Positions 1-56,400 of a stretch of DNA of 64,000 bases are shown in pieces. The position numbers and the translations under genes are program-made. Within the stretch, counting starts at the first letter, position 1, and every line of letters begins with the position of its first letter. The notes under the pieces are model-generated. The model searched no databases. It saw only the letters and a program-made list of their open reading frames with translations, and had not been told where the DNA came from. Origin of the DNA: Polyangium jinanense (GTDB lineage Bacteria; Myxococcota; Polyangia; Polyangiales; Polyangiaceae); contig NZ_JAGTJJ010000029.1 of assembly GCF_028435365.1 (NCBI RefSeq), positions 62,001-126,000 on the forward strand. Direction: 5' to 3'.

Positions 1-1575
1 GGCTTTGCCCGCGTTCTGCGAGGAGCGATCACAATCGGCCGCGAGGACGGCGAGCCCGGCGCGGATGTCCTCGTAATCGCGGTGGCCTTCGAGGTACCGC
101 TTGAGGATGCGGTGCACGACGAGGTCGGCGTACCTGCGGATCGGCGAGGTGAAATGCAGGTAGAGCGGCGCGCCGAGGCCAAAATGCGGGCCGGGATCGG
201 GCGTGTAACGCGCCGGGCCGAGGGTCTGGCCGAGCACGGTGCGGATCGCAGGCTCGAAGCGCGCGCCGGCGATCTGCGTCTCGAACGCGGCGAGCGAGCG
301 GGCCGAGAGGCGTGGGCCGAAGCCGGCCTCGATGCCGAAGTTGTGCGCGAGCTGCGCGAGCGTGCGGACGCGCTCGGGCGAGGGCTCGTCGTGGACGCGG
401 TAGATGCCGGGGAGGCCACGTGCGACGAGCCATTCCGCGACGGCCTCGTTCGCCGCGACCATGAGCCGCTCGACGAGCCTGTGCGCAGGGGTCTCACGGC
501 GCGCTTCGATCGCGATCGGCTCGCCCGTGCCGGCGTCGAGCTCGATCTTCGCCTCCTCGCGCGCGAGGTTCACCCCACCCCGCGCGGCGCGAACGGCGCT
601 GAGGCGCGCGACCGCGGTGCGGAGCCAGCGGAGCGTGCTCTCGACGGCGGGCGGGACGCCTTCGGCGTGGCTTTCGGACAGGAACGTGTCGACAGCGTCG
701 TACGTGAGGCGCGCGCGCGAGCGGACGAGGCTCTCGTAGACGTCGACCGAGGTGATGCGACCCTCGGGATCGATGCGGAGCTCGGCCGTGAGCGCAGGCC
801 GGTCCTCGCCCTCGACGAGGCTCGCCGCGCGCGACGAGATGGCCTCGGGGAGCATCGGGAGCACGCGGCCCGCGAGGTAGACGCTCGTGCCGCGCAGGCG
901 CGCCTCGCGATCGAGGATCGAGCGCTCGGGGACGAAGACGTCGACATCGGCGATGGAGACGAGCACGCGGAGCGCGCCGCTCGCGTCGGCCGGGTACGCC
1001 GAGAGCGCGTCGTCGATGTCGCGCGTGGAGGCCGCGTCGATGGTCACGGTCGGGACGCTCCGGAGATCGCGCCGCCGCTCCATGGGGATTGGCCGCGTGG
1101 CCGCTTCCTCGGCAGTACGATCGAGGGTCTCGGCGAAGACCGCGCGCAGGCCGTGCCGCGCGATGCAACGCTCGACGCCGAGATCGGCGCCTTCGGGGAC
1201 GACACGCGCGACGACGAGGCGATCGCCCGAGACCTCGGCCACGACGTGCGTGCCCTCGGCGAGCTCGTTCGTCGTGTCGAGCGGCCAGTCCGTGTTCGCC
1301 ACGGAGCGATCGATCCGCAGGTAGCGTTTGCCGCCGCGGAGGACGACGCTGCCGAAGACCTCGGCGCGGGCGCGGCTGACGAGCGCGAGCTCGGTGGCGA
1401 CGAAGCGGCCGTTGCCTTCGGACGTGAGCCGCGCGGTTACGACGTCGCCGTCGAGGAAGGGGTTCAGATCCGGGGGGGCGATGAACGCGGAGATGGGCGT
1501 CGGCGCTTCGACGACGAGGAAGCCGAACCCTCGTGGATGAACGGAAATGCGCCCGCGTGTCGTGCCGTCGCTCAT
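1..1575 (-). CDS. rnr: RNase R/RNase II family 3'-5' exoribonuclease (C-terminus off the window)
   Basis: The frame is open from the ATG at 1575 to the window edge, giving about 525 residues without a stop, so the 3' end lies outside. An N-terminal cold-shock/OB-like segment is followed by the RNB catalytic domain. Its metal-binding stretch TIDAASTRDIDDA lies near residues 178-190, and the family signature HFTSPIRRYADLVVHR is further on. The enzyme degrades structured RNA processively in the cytoplasm. The start codon overlaps the stop of the upstream amphi-Trp gene as ATGA, so the two are probably translationally coupled. RNase R is preferred over RNase II from general layout; the missing C-terminal S1 region would decide. 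Confidence 0.9.
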   Translation of the reverse strand, partial: MSDGTTRGRISVHPRGFGFLVVEAPTPISAFIAPPDLNPFLDGDVVTARLTSEGNGRFVATELALVSRARAEVFGSVVLRGGKRYLRIDRSVANTDWPLDTTNELAEGTHVVAEVSGDRLVVARVVPEGADLGVERCIARHGLRAVFAETLDRTAEEAATRPIPMERRRDLRSVPTVTIDAASTRDIDDALSAYPADASGALRVLVSIADVDVFVPERSILDREARLRGTSVYLAGRVLPMLPEAISSRAASLVEGEDRPALTAELRIDPEGRITSVDVYESLVRSRARLTYDAVDTFLSESHAEGVPPAVESTLRWLRTAVARLSAVRAARGGVNLAREEAKIELDAGTGEPIAIEARRETPAHRLVERLMVAANEAVAEWLVARGLPGIYRVHDEPSPERVRTLAQLAHNFGIEAGFGPRLSARSLAAFETQIAGARFEPAIRTVLGQTLGPARYTPDPGPHFGLGAPLYLHFTSPIRRYADLVVHRILKRYLEGHRDYEDIRAGLAVLAADCDRSSQNAGKA

Positions 1576-39578: not shown

Positions 39579-39600
39579 GAGGGGCTCGACAGGAGCGTGG

Positions 39601-39907
39601 CGCCGGGGCGCTGCCCCCGGACCCCGCGGGGGCTATCCGCCCCTCGACCCGGACCAGGGCAAGCCCTGGACTCGGGGTGGAAGAACTGCGCATCGCGCAG
39701 TTCTTCCAACGGGCCCGTTGGACCGCGTTGCCAGTCGAGAGGGCAGCGCGGCTGTCTCGGTTGGCAGGATCGTCGCCGGTCTTGACTCGGCCTGTTCGAT
39801 GAACTGCGCGAAGCGCAGTTCATCGACCCCGGGTCCAGCCCCTGGCTGGTCCGGGTCCAGGGGCGGATAGCCCCGGTGGGGCCTGGGGCAACGCCCCAGC
39901 GCAGCGG
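39601..39907. repeat. Dispersed ~307-base structured repeat, copy 1
   Basis: This intergenic element is nearly identical to 56094-56400. Its outer ends are inverted relative to each other: GGGGCTATCCGCCCC near the left end and GGGGCGGATAGCCCC near the right. Two internal perfect hairpins with 12-base arms occur: GAAGAACTGCGC/GCGCAGTTCTTC and GATGAACTGCGC/GCGCAGTTCATC. It contains no gene and lies between the convergent ends of the kinase and a lipoprotein gene. Confidence 0.85.
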
Positions 39908-42603: not shown

Positions 42604-44142
42604 ATGACCGCCAAGGAAACGATCGCCTCTGCGACGAACGGCGAGACCCACGCGGCCCCGTCGTCGCCCGCTCGCCCAACGCATGGAGCCGCGCTCGAGT
42701 TCGGCAAGGCGTGGACCTACGCGCCCGCGCCCGAGGCCGCCGATCACGTGCGGATCGATCCGCGTTACGAGCTCTTCATCGGCGGCAAGTGGGTCGCGCC
42801 GTCGTCGGGCAAGTATTTCGACACCGTGAGCCCCTCGACCGAGCAGAAGCTCGCCGAGGTCGCCGAAGCCAACGAGCGTGACGTCGACCTCGCCGTCAAG
42901 GCTGCGCGAGCTGGGTATGAAAGGTACTGGTCGAAGCTCTCCGGGATCGAGCGCGGCAAGTACATCTACCGCATCGCGCGGGTGATCCAGGAGAAGGCGC
43001 GCGAGCTCGCCATCGTGGAGACGATGGACGGCGGCAAGCCCATCAAGGAGTCGCGCGACGTCGATCTGCCGCTCGTGGCAGCGCACTTCTTCTATTACGC
43101 GGGCTGGGCCGACAAACTCGCGTACGCGTTCCCGGGTCGCTCGCCGCGCCCGCTCGGCGTGGCGGGGCAGGTGATCCCCTGGAACTTCCCGCTGCTCATG
43201 GCCGCGTGGAAGCTCGCGCCCGCGCTCGCCGCGGGCAACACGTGCGTGCTCAAGCCCGCGGAGACGACGCCGCTCACGGCGCTCTTGCTCGCGAAGATCA
43301 TCGAGGAGTGTGATCTGCCGCCGGGCGTGGTGAACATCGTGACGGGCGCGGGCGCGACGGGCGCGGCGGTCGTCGCGCATCCGGACGTGGACAAGGTCGC
43401 GTTCACGGGATCGACGGACGTGGGCAAGCGGATCCAGAAGGCCCTGTCCGGCACGAAGAAGAAGCTCACGCTCGAGCTCGGCGGCAAAGCGGCGAACATC
43501 GTGTTCGCGGACGCGCCGCTCGATCAGGCGGTCGAGGGGATCATCTCGGGCATCTACTTCAACCAGGGGCACGTCTGCTGCGCGGGATCACGCCTGCTCG
43601 TGGAGGAGGGCGCATTCGAGCCGCTCCTGCAAAAGCTCCGTGATCGCATGCAGACGCTGCGCGTGGGGGATCCGCTCGACAAGAACACCGACGTCGGCGC
43701 GATCAACTCGAAGATGCAGCTCGACAAGATCCGCGAGCTCGTCGACGCGGGTGAGCGCGAAGGCGCCGAGCGGTTCTCGACGCCGTGCGAGTTGCCGACG
43801 CGCGGCTACTGGTTCGCGCCGACGCTCTTCACGGGCGTGTCGCAATCGCACCGCATCGCGCGCGAGGAGATCTTCGGGCCGGTGCTCGCCGTGATGACCT
43901 TCCGCACGCCCGACGAGGCGATCGAGAAGGCGAACAACACGATGTACGGCCTGAGCGCGGGCGTCTGGACGGACAAGGGCTCGAAGAGCTTCTGGGTCTC
44001 GCAGCGGCTGCGCGCCGGGGTCGTCTGGGCGAACACGTACAACAAGTTCGATCCGAGCTCTCCGTTCGGCGGTTACAAGGAGAGCGGCTTCGGCCGCGAA
44101 GGCGGCCGGCAAGGGCTCTTGCCGTATCTCGAGGTGGACTGA
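42604..44142 (+). CDS. Aldehyde dehydrogenase (catalytically complete)
   Basis: The 512-residue enzyme shows IPWNFPLLMAAWKLAPALA, GNTCVLKPAE, FTGSTDVGK, the general base Glu291 in LELGGKAANIV, and nucleophile Cys325 in FNQGHVCCAGSR. The last residues overlap the next gene (TGATG). In a deoC operon its likely substrate is the acetaldehyde released by DeoC. Together with the next gene it resembles the two halves of ALDH16-type enzymes. Confidence 0.95.
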   Translation: MTAKETIASATNGETHAAPSSPARPTHGAALEFGKAWTYAPAPEAADHVRIDPRYELFIGGKWVAPSSGKYFDTVSPSTEQKLAEVAEANERDVDLAVKAARAGYERYWSKLSGIERGKYIYRIARVIQEKARELAIVETMDGGKPIKESRDVDLPLVAAHFFYYAGWADKLAYAFPGRSPRPLGVAGQVIPWNFPLLMAAWKLAPALAAGNTCVLKPAETTPLTALLLAKIIEECDLPPGVVNIVTGAGATGAAVVAHPDVDKVAFTGSTDVGKRIQKALSGTKKKLTLELGGKAANIVFADAPLDQAVEGIISGIYFNQGHVCCAGSRLLVEEGAFEPLLQKLRDRMQTLRVGDPLDKNTDVGAINSKMQLDKIRELVDAGEREGAERFSTPCELPTRGYWFAPTLFTGVSQSHRIAREEIFGPVLAVMTFRTPDEAIEKANNTMYGLSAGVWTDKGSKSFWVSQRLRAGVVWANTYNKFDPSSPFGGYKESGFGREGGRQGLLPYLEVD

Positions 44143-45107
44143 TGGCGCGCGCGAAGGAGAGCAAGGTGAAGGACAACGAGCGCGCGCCTCTGCAGGACGA
44201 CGTGAACGGGAGCGAGAACGGGTTCGTCTTGCCCGAACGCCTGCGGGTGAGAAAAGCCTACAAAATGTTGGTCGGCGGGCAGTTCGTTCGATCGGAGTCG
44301 GGCAGGTACATCCAGGTGGCGGATCCGATGAGCCTCGGAGGGACGAAAGAGAACGTGCCGTGGGCGTCCCGCAAGGACGTGCGCGACGCGGTCGTCGTGG
44401 CGCGCGGCGCGTGGGAGGGCTGGTCTGGCCGAACCGCGTACAACCGCGGGCAGATCCTCTACCGGCTCGCGGAGATGCTCGAAGCGCGGCAAGGCGAGCT
44501 CGCGCGCGCGCTCGAGCGCGGCGGGCTCGATGCGTCGCGGGCGGCGACCGAGACGGCGGCCGCGATCGATCGCGTGGTCTCGTACGCGGGCTGGGCGGAC
44601 AAGTACCAGAGCTTGTTTTCGAGCCTGAATCCGGTCGCCGGGCCGCACTTCAACTTCACGGTGCCCGAGTCGATGGGCGTGGTCGGCGTCGTTTCGCCCG
44701 CGCGTCCGGCGCTCCTCGGGCTGCTCGGCGCGGTCCTGCCGATCATCACGGCGGGCAACACGGTCGTCGTGCTCGCGAGCGAGGAGGATCCGCGCACGGC
44801 GCTCGTGCTCGGCGAGGCGCTCGCGACGAGTGATCTGCCGGGTGGCGTGATCAACGTGCTCACCGGCCGCGCGGCCGAGCTGCTTCCGCACCTCGCGAAG
44901 CACATGGAGGTGGCGGCGCTCGATCTGCACGGCGTGACGCCGGAGCTCGCGCGCAAGGCGGAGGAGGCGGCCATCGTGAACGTGAAGCGCGTGCGGACGC
45001 GATCGATCGACGAGGCGGCCTGGTTCGACGCGGACGGCGCGACGAGCCCGCGCTGGATCGAGCGGTTCGTCGAGATGAAGACGATCTGGCATCCCTCGGG
45101 CGCGTAA
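44142..45107 (+). CDS. Truncated ALDH-like protein without catalytic cysteine
   Basis: The 321-residue protein aligns with the first ~270 residues of ALDHs (YKMLVGGQFVRSESGRYI; SYAGWADKYQSL; GVVGVVSPARPALLGLLGAV; TAGNTVVVLASEEDPRTAL). The usual ELGGK and catalytic Cys blocks are missing. The end (VNVKRVRTRSIDEAAWF) is unlike ALDH. The ATG shares a base with the preceding stop. It is a dead or regulatory paralogue, probably an assembly partner of the upstream ALDH, like the C-terminal half of ALDH16 enzymes. Confidence 0.85.
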   Translation: MARAKESKVKDNERAPLQDDVNGSENGFVLPERLRVRKAYKMLVGGQFVRSESGRYIQVADPMSLGGTKENVPWASRKDVRDAVVVARGAWEGWSGRTAYNRGQILYRLAEMLEARQGELARALERGGLDASRAATETAAAIDRVVSYAGWADKYQSLFSSLNPVAGPHFNFTVPESMGVVGVVSPARPALLGLLGAVLPIITAGNTVVVLASEEDPRTALVLGEALATSDLPGGVINVLTGRAAELLPHLAKHMEVAALDLHGVTPELARKAEEAAIVNVKRVRTRSIDEAAWFDADGATSPRWIERFVEMKTIWHPSGA

Positions 45108-45650
45108 GCGCAAACCTCCATCCACCGGCATCCCCACCAGCGCTGCGCCGACGCGATCCGAAGGGTTCCGCTTGCGCGGCGTGTCTTGCGTGCATGCGAG
45201 ACACGCGGGGCCATGTGCGCGGGGGGGCTTGCGCCGGCGCAAACGCTGCCGGCTGCACTCGACGGACCCGCTTGAACGTGCGCAAGCGGGGTCAGCGCAC
45301 ACGTTTGGGTGCGCTTGCGCGCGCACAAGCGCATCCGTGACATGTGTTTGGGGTGTCTTGCATCGGCGCAAGGCACTCCAAACAGTCGCGAGGGCACTGC
45401 TTGCGTGGGTGCAAGGGACGTCGGCGACGCCCGAGGGGTCGATTTGCGTGCGTGCAAGACACGCCTCGCAGAGGAGGTGTGGGGTTTTGCGCCGTGGAGC
45501 CCTCGGTCGGGAGCCTGCACGCTGCGTTTTTGCGGGGGTGTTCAGCGGCTCTTGTCCGACGAGGGCGGAGGCTCGTCAGGACGTTCGTTGCGCTCGGCCG
45601 GCGAGGGGCTTGCCGCTGGGCGGGTGAACGGGCAAGGAACGACGAGGCGC
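45108..45650 (+). other. 543-base gene-free region with dyad array
   Basis: No credible gene lies here. The period of the array (43) is not a multiple of three, so it does not encode a repeated protein. The region contains the dyad array, and from about 45541 the leader of the ATPase gene, ending in GAGG before ATG 45651. Confidence 0.6.
45143..45533. repeat. Array of TTGC-N6-GCAA dyads at exact 43-base spacing
   Basis: TTGC (TTGA once) occurs at 45186, 45229, 45272, 45315, 45358, 45401, 45444, 45487 and 45530, each exactly 43 bases after the last. A matching right arm GCAA (or GCGA, ACAA) begins 10 bases later for the first seven. An eroded unit (CTGC/GCGA) sits at 45143. A lone GCAA at 45110 is also in register. 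The consensus unit core is CTTGCGnnnGnGCAAG, with GG 14-15 bases left of centre. Several units extend to longer hairpins: 45346-45383 has arms of 16 with two G-T pairs. Spacer sequence is otherwise unconserved. Confidence 0.85.
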
Positions 45651-46613
45651 ATGTTCCAGTCGATCGAGATCGAACGGTTCCGTGGCTTTTCCCGCCTCAC
45701 GCTGGAGGATCTCGGTCGCGTCAACCTCGTCGTTGGTGAGAACAACACGGGGAAGACGTCGCTGCTGGAGGCGATCACGCTGCTCGCGAATCCCATGCAG
45801 ATGTTTGATCTGCATCGGTTGTATCGCATCGACCGCCACCAGGAGGCTGACGCACGGTTTTTCGATTGGGTGCCGCAGCATGGTGCTGGGGACGCTGCGG
45901 CCTGCCTTCGGGTGACGTCACCGAAATCCGAGCTGCGTGAGTTTACCATCGAGAGGGGCTTCCACTTCCAGCACAAGCTCGGTGAGGGTGAGCAAAGTGA
46001 GTTCTCATCCGACAAGCACCCGATCTTTGTACGCGGCAAGGGACCATTTCGACGTCTGCGTGCGCATGCGGTCTCCGTGCAGCACCGCGTGCCCGAAGCG
46101 CTGGTAGACGCCTTCGCGGCAGCAGTGCGAGCGCCCGAAGACGAGCGGCAGTTGGAGTCTCTGCTCGCCTCCGTCGATAAGCGCATCCGCTCGGTGCGGC
46201 TCGACGCTGCCTCTTCCAAGCCCTTCATCGCCGTCGACGTCGGCCTTCGTGAGCGCATCCCCCTCTCGCAGGCAGGGCAGGGCATCTACAGGCTCGTGGC
46301 GATCTTCTCGGAGCTGCTCGGCGGCAAGCCGGACATCTGCTTCATCGACGAGATCGAGAACGGCATCCACTACACCGCGCTCCCCACGGTCTGGAAGGGA
46401 ATCGCCGAAGTCTCCGAGCGCCTCGGCATCCAGGTCTTCGCCACGACCCACTCCCGCGAGTGCCTCATCGCCGCGCACGAGTGTTTCGCTGCGCGAAACA
46501 GCTACGACTTCCGCGTGATCCAGCTCTATCGCATGGAAGGCGCGGCGGAAGGGCGCACCCTGGACCGCAAGCACATCGAAGCGGCCATCGCCGGGGACAT
46601 CGAGCTTCGTTGA
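45651..46613 (+). CDS. OLD/ABC-type AAA ATPase, partner of a TOPRIM protein
   Basis: The 320-residue ATPase has Walker A GENNTGKT (29-36), signature LSQAGQG (205-211), Walker B ICFIDEIENG (229-238) and H-loop TTHS (265-268). This is the layout of AAA_15/AAA_21 OLD-family ATPases. The usual C-terminal TOPRIM nuclease domain is absent and is supplied by the next gene, seven bases away. In PARIS and related systems an equivalent ATPase senses phage and releases a TOPRIM effector. ATG 45651 is preceded by GAGG. It lies directly downstream of the dyad array. Confidence 0.85.
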   Translation: MFQSIEIERFRGFSRLTLEDLGRVNLVVGENNTGKTSLLEAITLLANPMQMFDLHRLYRIDRHQEADARFFDWVPQHGAGDAAACLRVTSPKSELREFTIERGFHFQHKLGEGEQSEFSSDKHPIFVRGKGPFRRLRAHAVSVQHRVPEALVDAFAAAVRAPEDERQLESLLASVDKRIRSVRLDAASSKPFIAVDVGLRERIPLSQAGQGIYRLVAIFSELLGGKPDICFIDEIENGIHYTALPTVWKGIAEVSERLGIQVFATTHSRECLIAAHECFAARNSYDFRVIQLYRMEGAAEGRTLDRKHIEAAIAGDIELR

Positions 46614-46620
46614 GACGGTG

Positions 46621-47244
46621 ATGACAACCAAGAAACCGACGCTCGAAGCGTGCGATCGTGTCCTGATCGTCGAGGGCTACGGCGATCTCCTGTTCTACGC
46701 CGAGGCGCTCGAGGCGATCGGCAAGCTGGACGGCGTCTTCATCAAGGAGATGAACGGCAAGTCCGAGCTGACCACCAAGCTGGAGACGTTCCTGAGCCGG
46801 AAGCTCCTCGCCGCGAAGAAGTGCATTGGCGTGATCGTCGACGCGGACGCGGACCTTTCGGGTACGTGCCGTTCGCTTGAATCGGTGCTCACGAGGATCA
46901 CGGGGCAGGCGGTCAGGCATGCCGACTGGACGCAGGGCACACCGAGCATCGGGCTCTTCGTCGTCTCCGGCGACGGTAACACCGGCGAGATCGAGTCCCT
47001 CGTCTGGCGAGCGTGGTCGAACGACCCCGAGAATGCTGGACCCAGGACGTGCGTCGAGACGTTCCTCGCCTGCATGGACGGCCAAGGTCATCGGGCAAAG
47101 AGCCCCGACAAGGGACGGATCAGCGCGCTCCTCTCGGTGCTCAGCGACGAGGACCCCCGGCTGGGCCCCGGCGCGAGGGATCGCGTCTTCGATTTCTCCC
47201 GTCCCGAGTTCCAGCCCCTCATCGACTTCCTCCGCCGCCTCTGA
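46621..47244 (+). CDS. TOPRIM (DUF3226-like) nuclease-type protein
   Basis: The 207-residue protein has the TOPRIM signatures: Glu18 in VLIVEGYGDLLFY, then VIVDADAD with Asp74 and Asp76. GNTGEIESLVW near 120-130 carries further acidic residues typical of DUF3226 proteins. It is probably a metal-dependent nuclease or nucleic-acid-binding effector. ATG 46621 is chosen; GTG 46618 is possible. With the ATPase it forms a split OLD-like pair. It ends 17 bases before fmt. Confidence 0.78.
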   Translation: MTTKKPTLEACDRVLIVEGYGDLLFYAEALEAIGKLDGVFIKEMNGKSELTTKLETFLSRKLLAAKKCIGVIVDADADLSGTCRSLESVLTRITGQAVRHADWTQGTPSIGLFVVSGDGNTGEIESLVWRAWSNDPENAGPRTCVETFLACMDGQGHRAKSPDKGRISALLSVLSDEDPRLGPGARDRVFDFSRPEFQPLIDFLRRL

Positions 47245-56069: not shown

Positions 56070-56093
56070 CAAACTCCCACGCCCCCCCCGCCG

Positions 56094-56400
56094 CGCCGGG
56101 GCGCTGCCCCGGGCCCCGCGGGGGCTATCCGCCCCTCGACCCGGACCAGGGCAAGCCCTGGACTCGTGATGGAAGAACTGCGCTCCGCGCAGTTCTTCCA
56201 ACGGGCCGGTTGAACCGCGTTGCCAGTCGAAAGGGCAGCGCGGCTGTCTTGGCTGGCAGGGTCGCCTTCGGTCTTGCCCTGGCCTGTTCGATGAACTGCG
56301 CATCGCGCAGTTCATCGACCCCGGGTCCAGCCCCTGGCTGGTCCGGGTCCAGGGGCGGACAGCCCCTGGTGGGGCCTGGGGCAACGCCCCAGCGCGGCGG
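56094..56400. repeat. Dispersed ~307-base structured repeat, copy 2
   Basis: This is the second copy of the element at 39601-39907, with about 90% identity by eye. Both 12-base-arm hairpins are perfect here too; only the three-base loops differ (TCC and ATC here, ATC and GAA in copy 1). Its right end touches the stop of tssG, so it again lies between convergent gene ends. Confidence 0.85.

Follow-up and report, generated by a model that had tools for sequence, protein, structure and literature searches.

A helically phased array of palindromic DNA sites in Polyangium, a candidate tract for a symmetric DNA-binding protein

Palindromes set in regularly spaced rows between genes, and dispersed over the genome, have been described as BIME-2/REP elements, for which a role as protein-binding sites and in chromosome organisation has been suggested (PMC2817692). 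REP copy number is usually above 100 per genome (PMC2817692), and one end of a REP carries a GTAG or CGTC tag (PMC3733652). The arrays reported here, from the myxobacterial genus Polyangium, are alike in being intergenic palindromes in regular rows that are dispersed through the genome. They differ in that the units lack a fixed tag (of 158 units, 2 have GTAG and 18 have CGTC at the best offset), in that the sites are symmetric and directionless with a palindromic centre instead of a loop, in the rigid step of 43 bp, and in number, since between two and ten arrays were found in a genome. GTAG REPs go with a Y1 (RAYT) transposase in the genome; a REP system with its RAYT was rejected here on the missing tag and on the absence of a Y1 transposase from genomes G057 and G001. 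Matches to this family (PF01797) numbered 0 in G057, G001 and G078, one each in G087, G094 and G033, and two in G015. Among the titles and opening lines of abstracts listed from the open-licence PMC literature, no account of arrays of the present kind was found.

Centromere-type and macrodomain-type sites such as parS and matS are palindromes of about 16 bp that occur at several places per chromosome. The Polyangium sites are likewise palindromes of about 16 bp at several chromosomal places, and the arrays of G057 are origin-distal; the likeness is one of architecture. Unlike parS and matS, they are arranged as phased rows, and in G057 a lone site hardly ever occurs. Operators of the FNR/CRP and Cro/CI types are single sites, or a few, at promoters. 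The geometry TTG-x-x-N4-x-x-CAA is common to the Polyangium sites and to FNR sites, and two viral contigs of GC 0.70-0.71 (L236:11623-11803 and L237:4817-4877) have CTTGCRYNNRYGCAAG dyads next to Cro/CI-type HTH genes. Compared with such operators, the Polyangium rows are long, mostly of 7-10 sites, and some lie between convergent genes. They also differ from CRISPR arrays with their near-identical repeats and unique spacers, since in most Polyangium arrays variation runs through the whole unit and spares the dyad alone.

The array from which this work started lies in a window of 64,000 nucleotides from Polyangium jinanense (contig NZ_JAGTJJ010000029.1, positions 62,001 to 126,000), and its features are collected in Table 1. 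TTGC words start at 45186, 45229, 45315, 45358, 45401, 45444, 45487 and 45530, with TTGA at 45272, and both reading and a script place every step at 43 bases. Seven of these nine words have a GCAA-like right arm, which is missing from those at 45487 and 45530. The motif CTTGC-N6-GCAAG, with at most one mismatch, recurs at a period of exactly 43 bp in the seven A dyads of the core. Six exact TTGC words at one period were reached in 0 of 500 Markov shuffles of the region and in 0 of 20 shuffles of the whole window, the maximum being 3 in each case. The nine-fold register with its seven right arms, as described in an earlier sequence-only reading of this DNA, is thus confirmed, and the shuffle control proposed in that reading did not reproduce the periodicity. 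The array is also non-coding, as had been claimed; a coding repeat is rejected by the period of 43 and by the lack of any called gene inside the array. Eroded units had been seen upstream, and the dyad one period before the core is real. The last in-register TTGC, at 45529..45544, probably lies outside the array proper.

Table 1. Features in and around the dyad array (positions in the window unless a locus is named)
Feature	Position	Strand	Remarks
Aldehyde-dehydrogenase-family gene, left neighbour	44142..45107	+	only part of PF00171 covered; not part of the array
Eroded A dyad preceding the core by one period	45142..45157	.	better kept in the orthologue of Polyangium sp. 6x1 (G001), CTTGCGCCGACGCGAA
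Core array, seven A dyads	45185..45458	.	CTTGC-N6-GCAAG, at most one mismatch, 43-bp steps
A dyad 1	45185..45200	.	CTTGCGTGCATGCGAG
A dyad 2	45228..45243	.	CTTGCGCCGGCGCAAA
A dyad 3	45271..45286	.	CTTGAACGTGCGCAAG
A dyad 4	45314..45329	.	CTTGCGCGCGCACAAG
A dyad 5	45357..45372	.	CTTGCATCGGCGCAAG; long outer arms including G-T pairs
A dyad 6	45400..45415	.	CTTGCGTGGGTGCAAG
A dyad 7	45443..45458	.	TTTGCGTGCGTGCAAG
First of six B positions, 17 bp	45206..45222, axis base 45214	.	weak dyad, CCRNGCMSNSKGCNYGG-like, midway between A dyads
Other five B positions	axes 45257, 45300, 45343, 45386, 45429	.	from the pooled profile of 124 spacers; single B sites weak
In-register TTGC without right arm	45486..45501	.	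surrounding sequence kept in four aligned orthologues
In-register TTGC without right arm	45529..45544	.	within a segment missing from G057 and G087
AAA_15/AAA_21 (OLD-like) ATPase gene, right neighbour	45651..46613	+	not part of the array; missing beside the array in G057 and G087
DUF3226 (PF11536) protein gene, second of the pair	46621..47244	+	not part of the array
140-bp repeat (approximate length), inverted pairs	39592-39718 / 39778-39906; 56093-56210 / 56270-56395
140-bp repeat (approximate length), elsewhere	L161:2825-2965

Twenty arrays were compared, that of the window and L150-L168, with 7-10 units in 17 of the 20. This is no set of independent arrays: the window locus accounts for four and a second locus for three, a type-B family contributes nine copies with L157 as a partial tenth, two are of a third kind and one stands alone; units are pseudo-replicated in all pooled counts. 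With no period imposed, the 79 adjacent spacings between strong dyads in these arrays were 43 bp in 66 cases, 42 in 3, 86 in 4, 129 in 5 and 172 in one, and no other value occurred. In 19 of the arrays there is no called gene; in the twentieth, L167, only the weak tail departs from this. The 158 units (not independent) give the consensus CTTGCRYS|SRYGCAAG for the A dyad, and its profile is symmetric on both strands. Midway between A dyads lies a weaker B dyad, CCRNGCM-N3-KGCNYGG, with its axis on a base; in 124 spacers its positions are 37% Watson-Crick, compared with 29.6% (sd 1.4) in shuffled spacers. The A and B axes follow one another about every 21.5 bp, near two turns of B-DNA, and 43 bp is about 4.1 turns, which supports the earlier estimate of roughly four helical turns per period. 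At the window locus G001 and G057 have one 43-bp unit more than the window and G087; units are gained and lost whole.

Several other rows of dyads were seen. Locus L179 (G015:C8) consists of 129-bp (3 x 43) super-repeats and contains a fully symmetric alternative dyad, CTCGAACGCGTTCGAG, which the demand of a two-fold symmetric reader would explain. L220 (G057, 7.524 Mb), L151, L169 and L222 are young, near-identical tandem arrays with A and B dyads of the same kind and a unit of 43 bp, or of 42 bp in G033; the near-identical 43-bp arrays L151 and L220 show that plain tandem duplication also yields such rows, a point against the binding-array reading. In Bacteroidetes MAG contigs (L012, L085, L036, L045) CTTGC...GCAAG-like dyads recur about every 21 or 42 bp.

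At the window locus the dyads have been kept while the sequence between them has changed. In four orthologues the A arms are 84-95% identical and the spacers 49-75%, the adjoining coding tail being at 89-96%; for arms against spacers, Fisher p is 7e-5, 2e-9 and 9e-6 when the window is compared with G001, G057 and G087 respectively. Selection rather than chance, as proposed from the sequence of the window, is supported both by this conservation and by shuffles that never match the periodicity. The arrays can nevertheless be lost, as is indicated by the decayed dyads of the orthologous G094 array and by G078, in which the only remnant seen is two units of a type-B array, cut into a gene end. G078 also had no pattern match above control (0 forward, control 3), which together with the remnant argues against an essential function.

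The earlier reading had taken the matching outer arms of individual units as a sign of selection on pairing. In the window array, at positions +-9..16, a unit's own arms are Watson-Crick in 34 of 56 pairs, compared with 24.6 when arms are swapped between units (p 0.002-0.004). The excess is therefore true in this array, and as it is not foreseen for a site made of the core only, it counts against the binding-array reading. It is not general: in the other 19 arrays p was below 0.06 in four (L153, L159, L164 and L165), two of which are type-B and one the nearest orthologue of the window array, and in most arrays other than that of the window it is weak or absent. Nor have the private arms been kept by compensation in that orthologue. 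Compared with G087, 24 dyad pairs of the window have changed, of which one is a compensated double change; in the others Watson-Crick pairing was lost in 11, gained in 8, and was lacking in both orthologues in 4. Selection on pairing is thus not supported, with one in 24 changed pairs compensated and arms that do not covary.

Covariation was assessed in three sets. Nine type-B copies show change on both sides in 1 of 42 arm pairs, the shuffled mean being 1.4. When each family is reduced to a single array (41 units), none of the pairs +-2 to +-8 significantly exceeds what independence would give. In all 158 units, positions +-3..+-8 give 665 own pairs and 690 with swapped arms, as expected if the half-sites vary independently. 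The central pair +-1 does covary, in 26 of 41 units of the reduced set compared with 16.9 expected (p 0.001) and in 121 of 158 compared with 70.2 in the pooled set. Since adjacent central bases cannot pair in a hairpin, this is a feature of duplex symmetry. The pair +-2 covaries in the pooled set only (105 vs 82), and +-9 and +-10 show a modest pooled excess, which for +-9 is weak in the reduced set (p 0.04).

These results bear on the proposal that the array is transcribed as a precursor of hairpin RNAs. In its favour, three of the seven window units fold far below shuffles (z -3.9, -2.9 and -6.8, the other four giving -1.1, -1.8, +0.8 and -1.0), and of 33 units from four orthologues at the window locus, which are not independent, 24 fold better as the window + strand (p 0.014). 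L153/L156, oriented alike, have 18 G-T and 38 A-C mismatches (p 0.010), the opposite direction, as if the other strand were used. Elsewhere the balance is closer: G-T and A-C mismatches number 126 and 127 when every unit is counted, and 34 and 35 with one array per family, a weak test as orientations are mixed, and among arrays oriented alike they number 63 and 46 at the window locus overall (p 0.13), 44 and 38 at the second locus, and 13 and 7 in L151. In the type-B arrays with L157, oriented alike, inner arms have 56 G-T and 61 A-C mismatches, and outer arms an uneven 73 and 45. Several strand tests were made on units that are copies of one another, so the bias is weak; it nevertheless tells against the duplex-DNA reading, and some of the arrays may be transcribed. 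Against a precursor stand the near-lack of two-sided change in type-B copies and in the nearest orthologue, the covarying central bases, and the absence of any Rfam family in the window and in L151, L154, L161 and L166. Hairpin RNAs were rejected as the main reading on the want of compensatory changes in the type-B copies, the reduced set and the nearest orthologue, and such a precursor now appears highly improbable. On this evidence selection would seem to act on duplex DNA rather than on RNA hairpins, RNA being largely, and less than wholly, set aside.

A functional link had also been expected between the array and the OLD-like ATPase/TOPRIM-like gene pair downstream. Array and pair occur together at the window locus in the window itself and in G001, and in G094 the pair accompanies the decayed array. 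G057 and G087 have the array without the pair; G015 has the pair without the array, the ATPase start lying about 30 bp past the dehydrogenase stop; and G078 has neither, with about 20 bp between the flanking matches. All four combinations are thus found in seven genomes, and the link is not upheld; a unit of array and ATPase/DUF3226 pair was rejected, each occurring without the other at this locus. The co-occurrence that had been proposed as a check likewise fails here, and the other arrays checked adjoin other genes. A search for the ATPase at E <= 1e-20 in 98 genomes of the family found it in three, G094, G015 and G001. Elsewhere the array neighbours include peptidase, permease, kinase, esterase, isochorismatase and other genes, and no gene family common to all array neighbours was found.

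This placement also bears on whether the array is an operator that regulates the adjacent gene or genes. In the window and in G001 the array precedes the ATPase gene on its upstream side, and arrays L153, L161 and L163 lie 128-188 bp upstream of genes of a 235-238-aa family without a Pfam domain. Similar CTTGCRYNNRYGCAAG dyads adjoin Cro/CI-type HTH genes in two of the five viral contigs found in a scan; in another, L235, the dyads are inside an ORF. Promoter-region placement is, however, not general, since arrays also lie between convergent genes (L152/L155/L167, L156 and L166; in L152, L156 and L166 with Pfam support on both sides). The neighbours are diverse, and A sites outside arrays are nearly nil in G057. 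The segment 45050-45700 has no sigma-70-like promoter, although such promoters need not be recognisable in Polyangium, and no terminator-like site. Taken together, an operator is very unlikely. The genes of the 235-238-aa family (L153:4456-5172, L161:2984-3700 and L163:4388-5092) start at this distance from the array at several loci, adjoin arrays of different kinds, and have a copy in G015 with no array within its 3.7-kb locus.

Arrays of this kind were sought more widely. In a two-dyad scan of genome contigs, Polyangium sp. 6x1 appears twice among the matches listed, once at the place orthologous to the window (L030) and once beside unrelated genes (L024), and Polyangium sp. 15x6 (L105) has a further orthologue of the window array, its sequence agreeing with the G087 locus. 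At least 15 of the at least 120 stretches listed have four or more dyads in a row; three of these are from Polyangium (L024, L030 and L105), and the non-Polyangium rows, 11 of 12 of which were inspected, are mostly near-identical tandem repeats at other periods. The two-dyad pattern with at most three mismatches was then counted in six whole genomes of the genus, with forward matches (and reversed controls) of 50 (2) in G057, 17 (1) in G094, 0 (3) in G078, 37 (4) in G001, 22 (8) in G087 and 6 (1) in G015. A strict pattern was found in 6 of 183 genomes of the order (control 0), namely four Polyangium, G033, whose rows have a 42-bp step and a different B dyad, and G120, which has pairs at a distance of 40 bp. 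A looser pattern matched 8 of 98 genomes of the family, partly as isolated or coding-type pairs, and its reversed control matched 11 of 98, ten times in G088. Counted by locus, ten arrays were found in G057, some of them truncated, at least eight in G001, at least five each in G087 and G094, and at least two in G015.

Other repeats occur in the same genomes. A repeat of about 140 bp, which contains a long palindrome, GGAAGAACTGCGCA...TGCGCAGTTCTTCC, besides other GC hairpins, is distinct from the 43-bp arrays. With a 2.9-kb query that includes it, each Polyangium genome had 58-104 matches; most of the matches listed are copies of this repeat, 86-98% identical, and no Rfam family was found for it in the window or L161. 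In G057 six mutually alike stretches (6198413, 6248394, 6301766, 6316431, 6469404 and 7486810) match the two-dyad pattern when 2-3 mismatches are allowed, and no fewer than three of them have a copy of the 140-bp repeat within about 400 bp; they look like another repeat family.

The dispersal raises the question of a selfish tandem repeat, MITE-like or BIME-like, copied by a mobile or conversion process, whose dyads would serve the copying enzyme and have no host role. The type-B family, of about 300 bp and seven dyads with four copies each in G001, G057, G087 and G094, argues for this: homology between copies largely stops at the array ends where the flanks are not orthologous, and three G087 copies cluster, one of them at a locus shared with other species, which points to recent copying or conversion. 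In the tree of these sixteen copies there are two orthologous G057/G094 pairs (supports 97/97 and 91/91), and copies also group within G087 and within G001, so both vertical descent and within-genome copying or conversion have occurred. One type-B array of G057 lies by an esterase gene at which 0 of 5 other genomes have a type-B array within 1.5 kb upstream, and G078 has lost nearly all arrays. A selfish dispersed repeat would explain the low copy number, the copying and the loss. On the other side, site arms are kept while spacers diverge at orthologous places, and the exact spacing persists with spacers only half identical. Terminal repeats, target duplication and a cognate transposase were not found, the genomes with most pattern matches (G057 and G001) have no Y1 transposase, no clean empty-site pair was seen, and the type-B array ends in half B dyads. 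A type-B array gave no match to phages or plasmids, and a plasmid search with 45000-45660 returned one chance-like match of 46 bases, in Burkholderia. A selfish origin is possible, if on the doubtful side.

The arrangement of sites in the chromosome can be judged in G057, a single complete contig of 13.24 Mb, the other Polyangium genomes being drafts. The A-type pattern YTTGCRYSSRYGCAAG occurs there at 25 places (reversed control 4 forward and 3 reverse), 24 of them in arrays, two of which are truncated, and one alone. All arrays lie at 3.0-8.5 Mb, and dnaA is at 11.65 Mb. The largest empty arc covers 59% of the chromosome with dnaA inside it (p 0.004 for ten arrays, rising to 0.016 if the group at 8.04-8.06 Mb is counted as one); this clustering test was post hoc, and its pattern is not repeated in G033, one of whose two arrays lies about 2.2 Mb from dnaA. 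A partition-like site had been among the candidates named earlier; one of the parS kind would be expected near the origin, and the position of the G057 arrays away from dnaA speaks against it.

The explanation that we consider probable, with a good deal of room for doubt, is a helically phased array that works as duplex DNA and offers sites to a putative DNA-binding protein of symmetric (dimeric) form. A cooperative protein-binding array had been one of the candidates proposed for the window, and it is retained as the leading reading. Each 43 bp would present site A, strong and 16 bp long, and halfway to the next A the weaker site B of 17 bp, with the axes of both on one face of the helix about every 21.5 bp. 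The candidate dimer could bind neighbouring sites cooperatively and so form a nucleoprotein tract of 300-400 bp, and arrays would grow or shrink by entire 43-bp units. Such a tract may be an architectural or insulating site rather than a regulator of one neighbour, which would explain why the sites occur only in arrays, why they are indifferent to gene orientation, and why their phasing is exact. Because like dyads adjoin Cro/CI-type HTH genes in the viral contigs L236 and L237, a regulator of that type is a lead for the protein; an FNR-type regulator is presumably the alternative, by the geometry of its site. A bolder version, which we put forward tentatively and think unlikely, is a chromosome-architecture system of its own, in which a dedicated dimer polymerises on phased A/B dyads and ties together or insulates about ten origin-distal arrays. 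It would be in keeping with sites almost only in rows, and with selection on site and spacing while the spacers turn over.

The arrays thus amount to a precise and rigidly spaced set of DNA sites in the very large (11-13 Mb) chromosomes of myxobacteria. As the sites of G057 are almost never single, a pull-down with one array should name the candidate protein and would reveal any architectural system that these genomes have of their own. If the arrays should prove selfish, they would still be a clear case of tandem palindromes that hold an exact helical phase while their spacers diverge.
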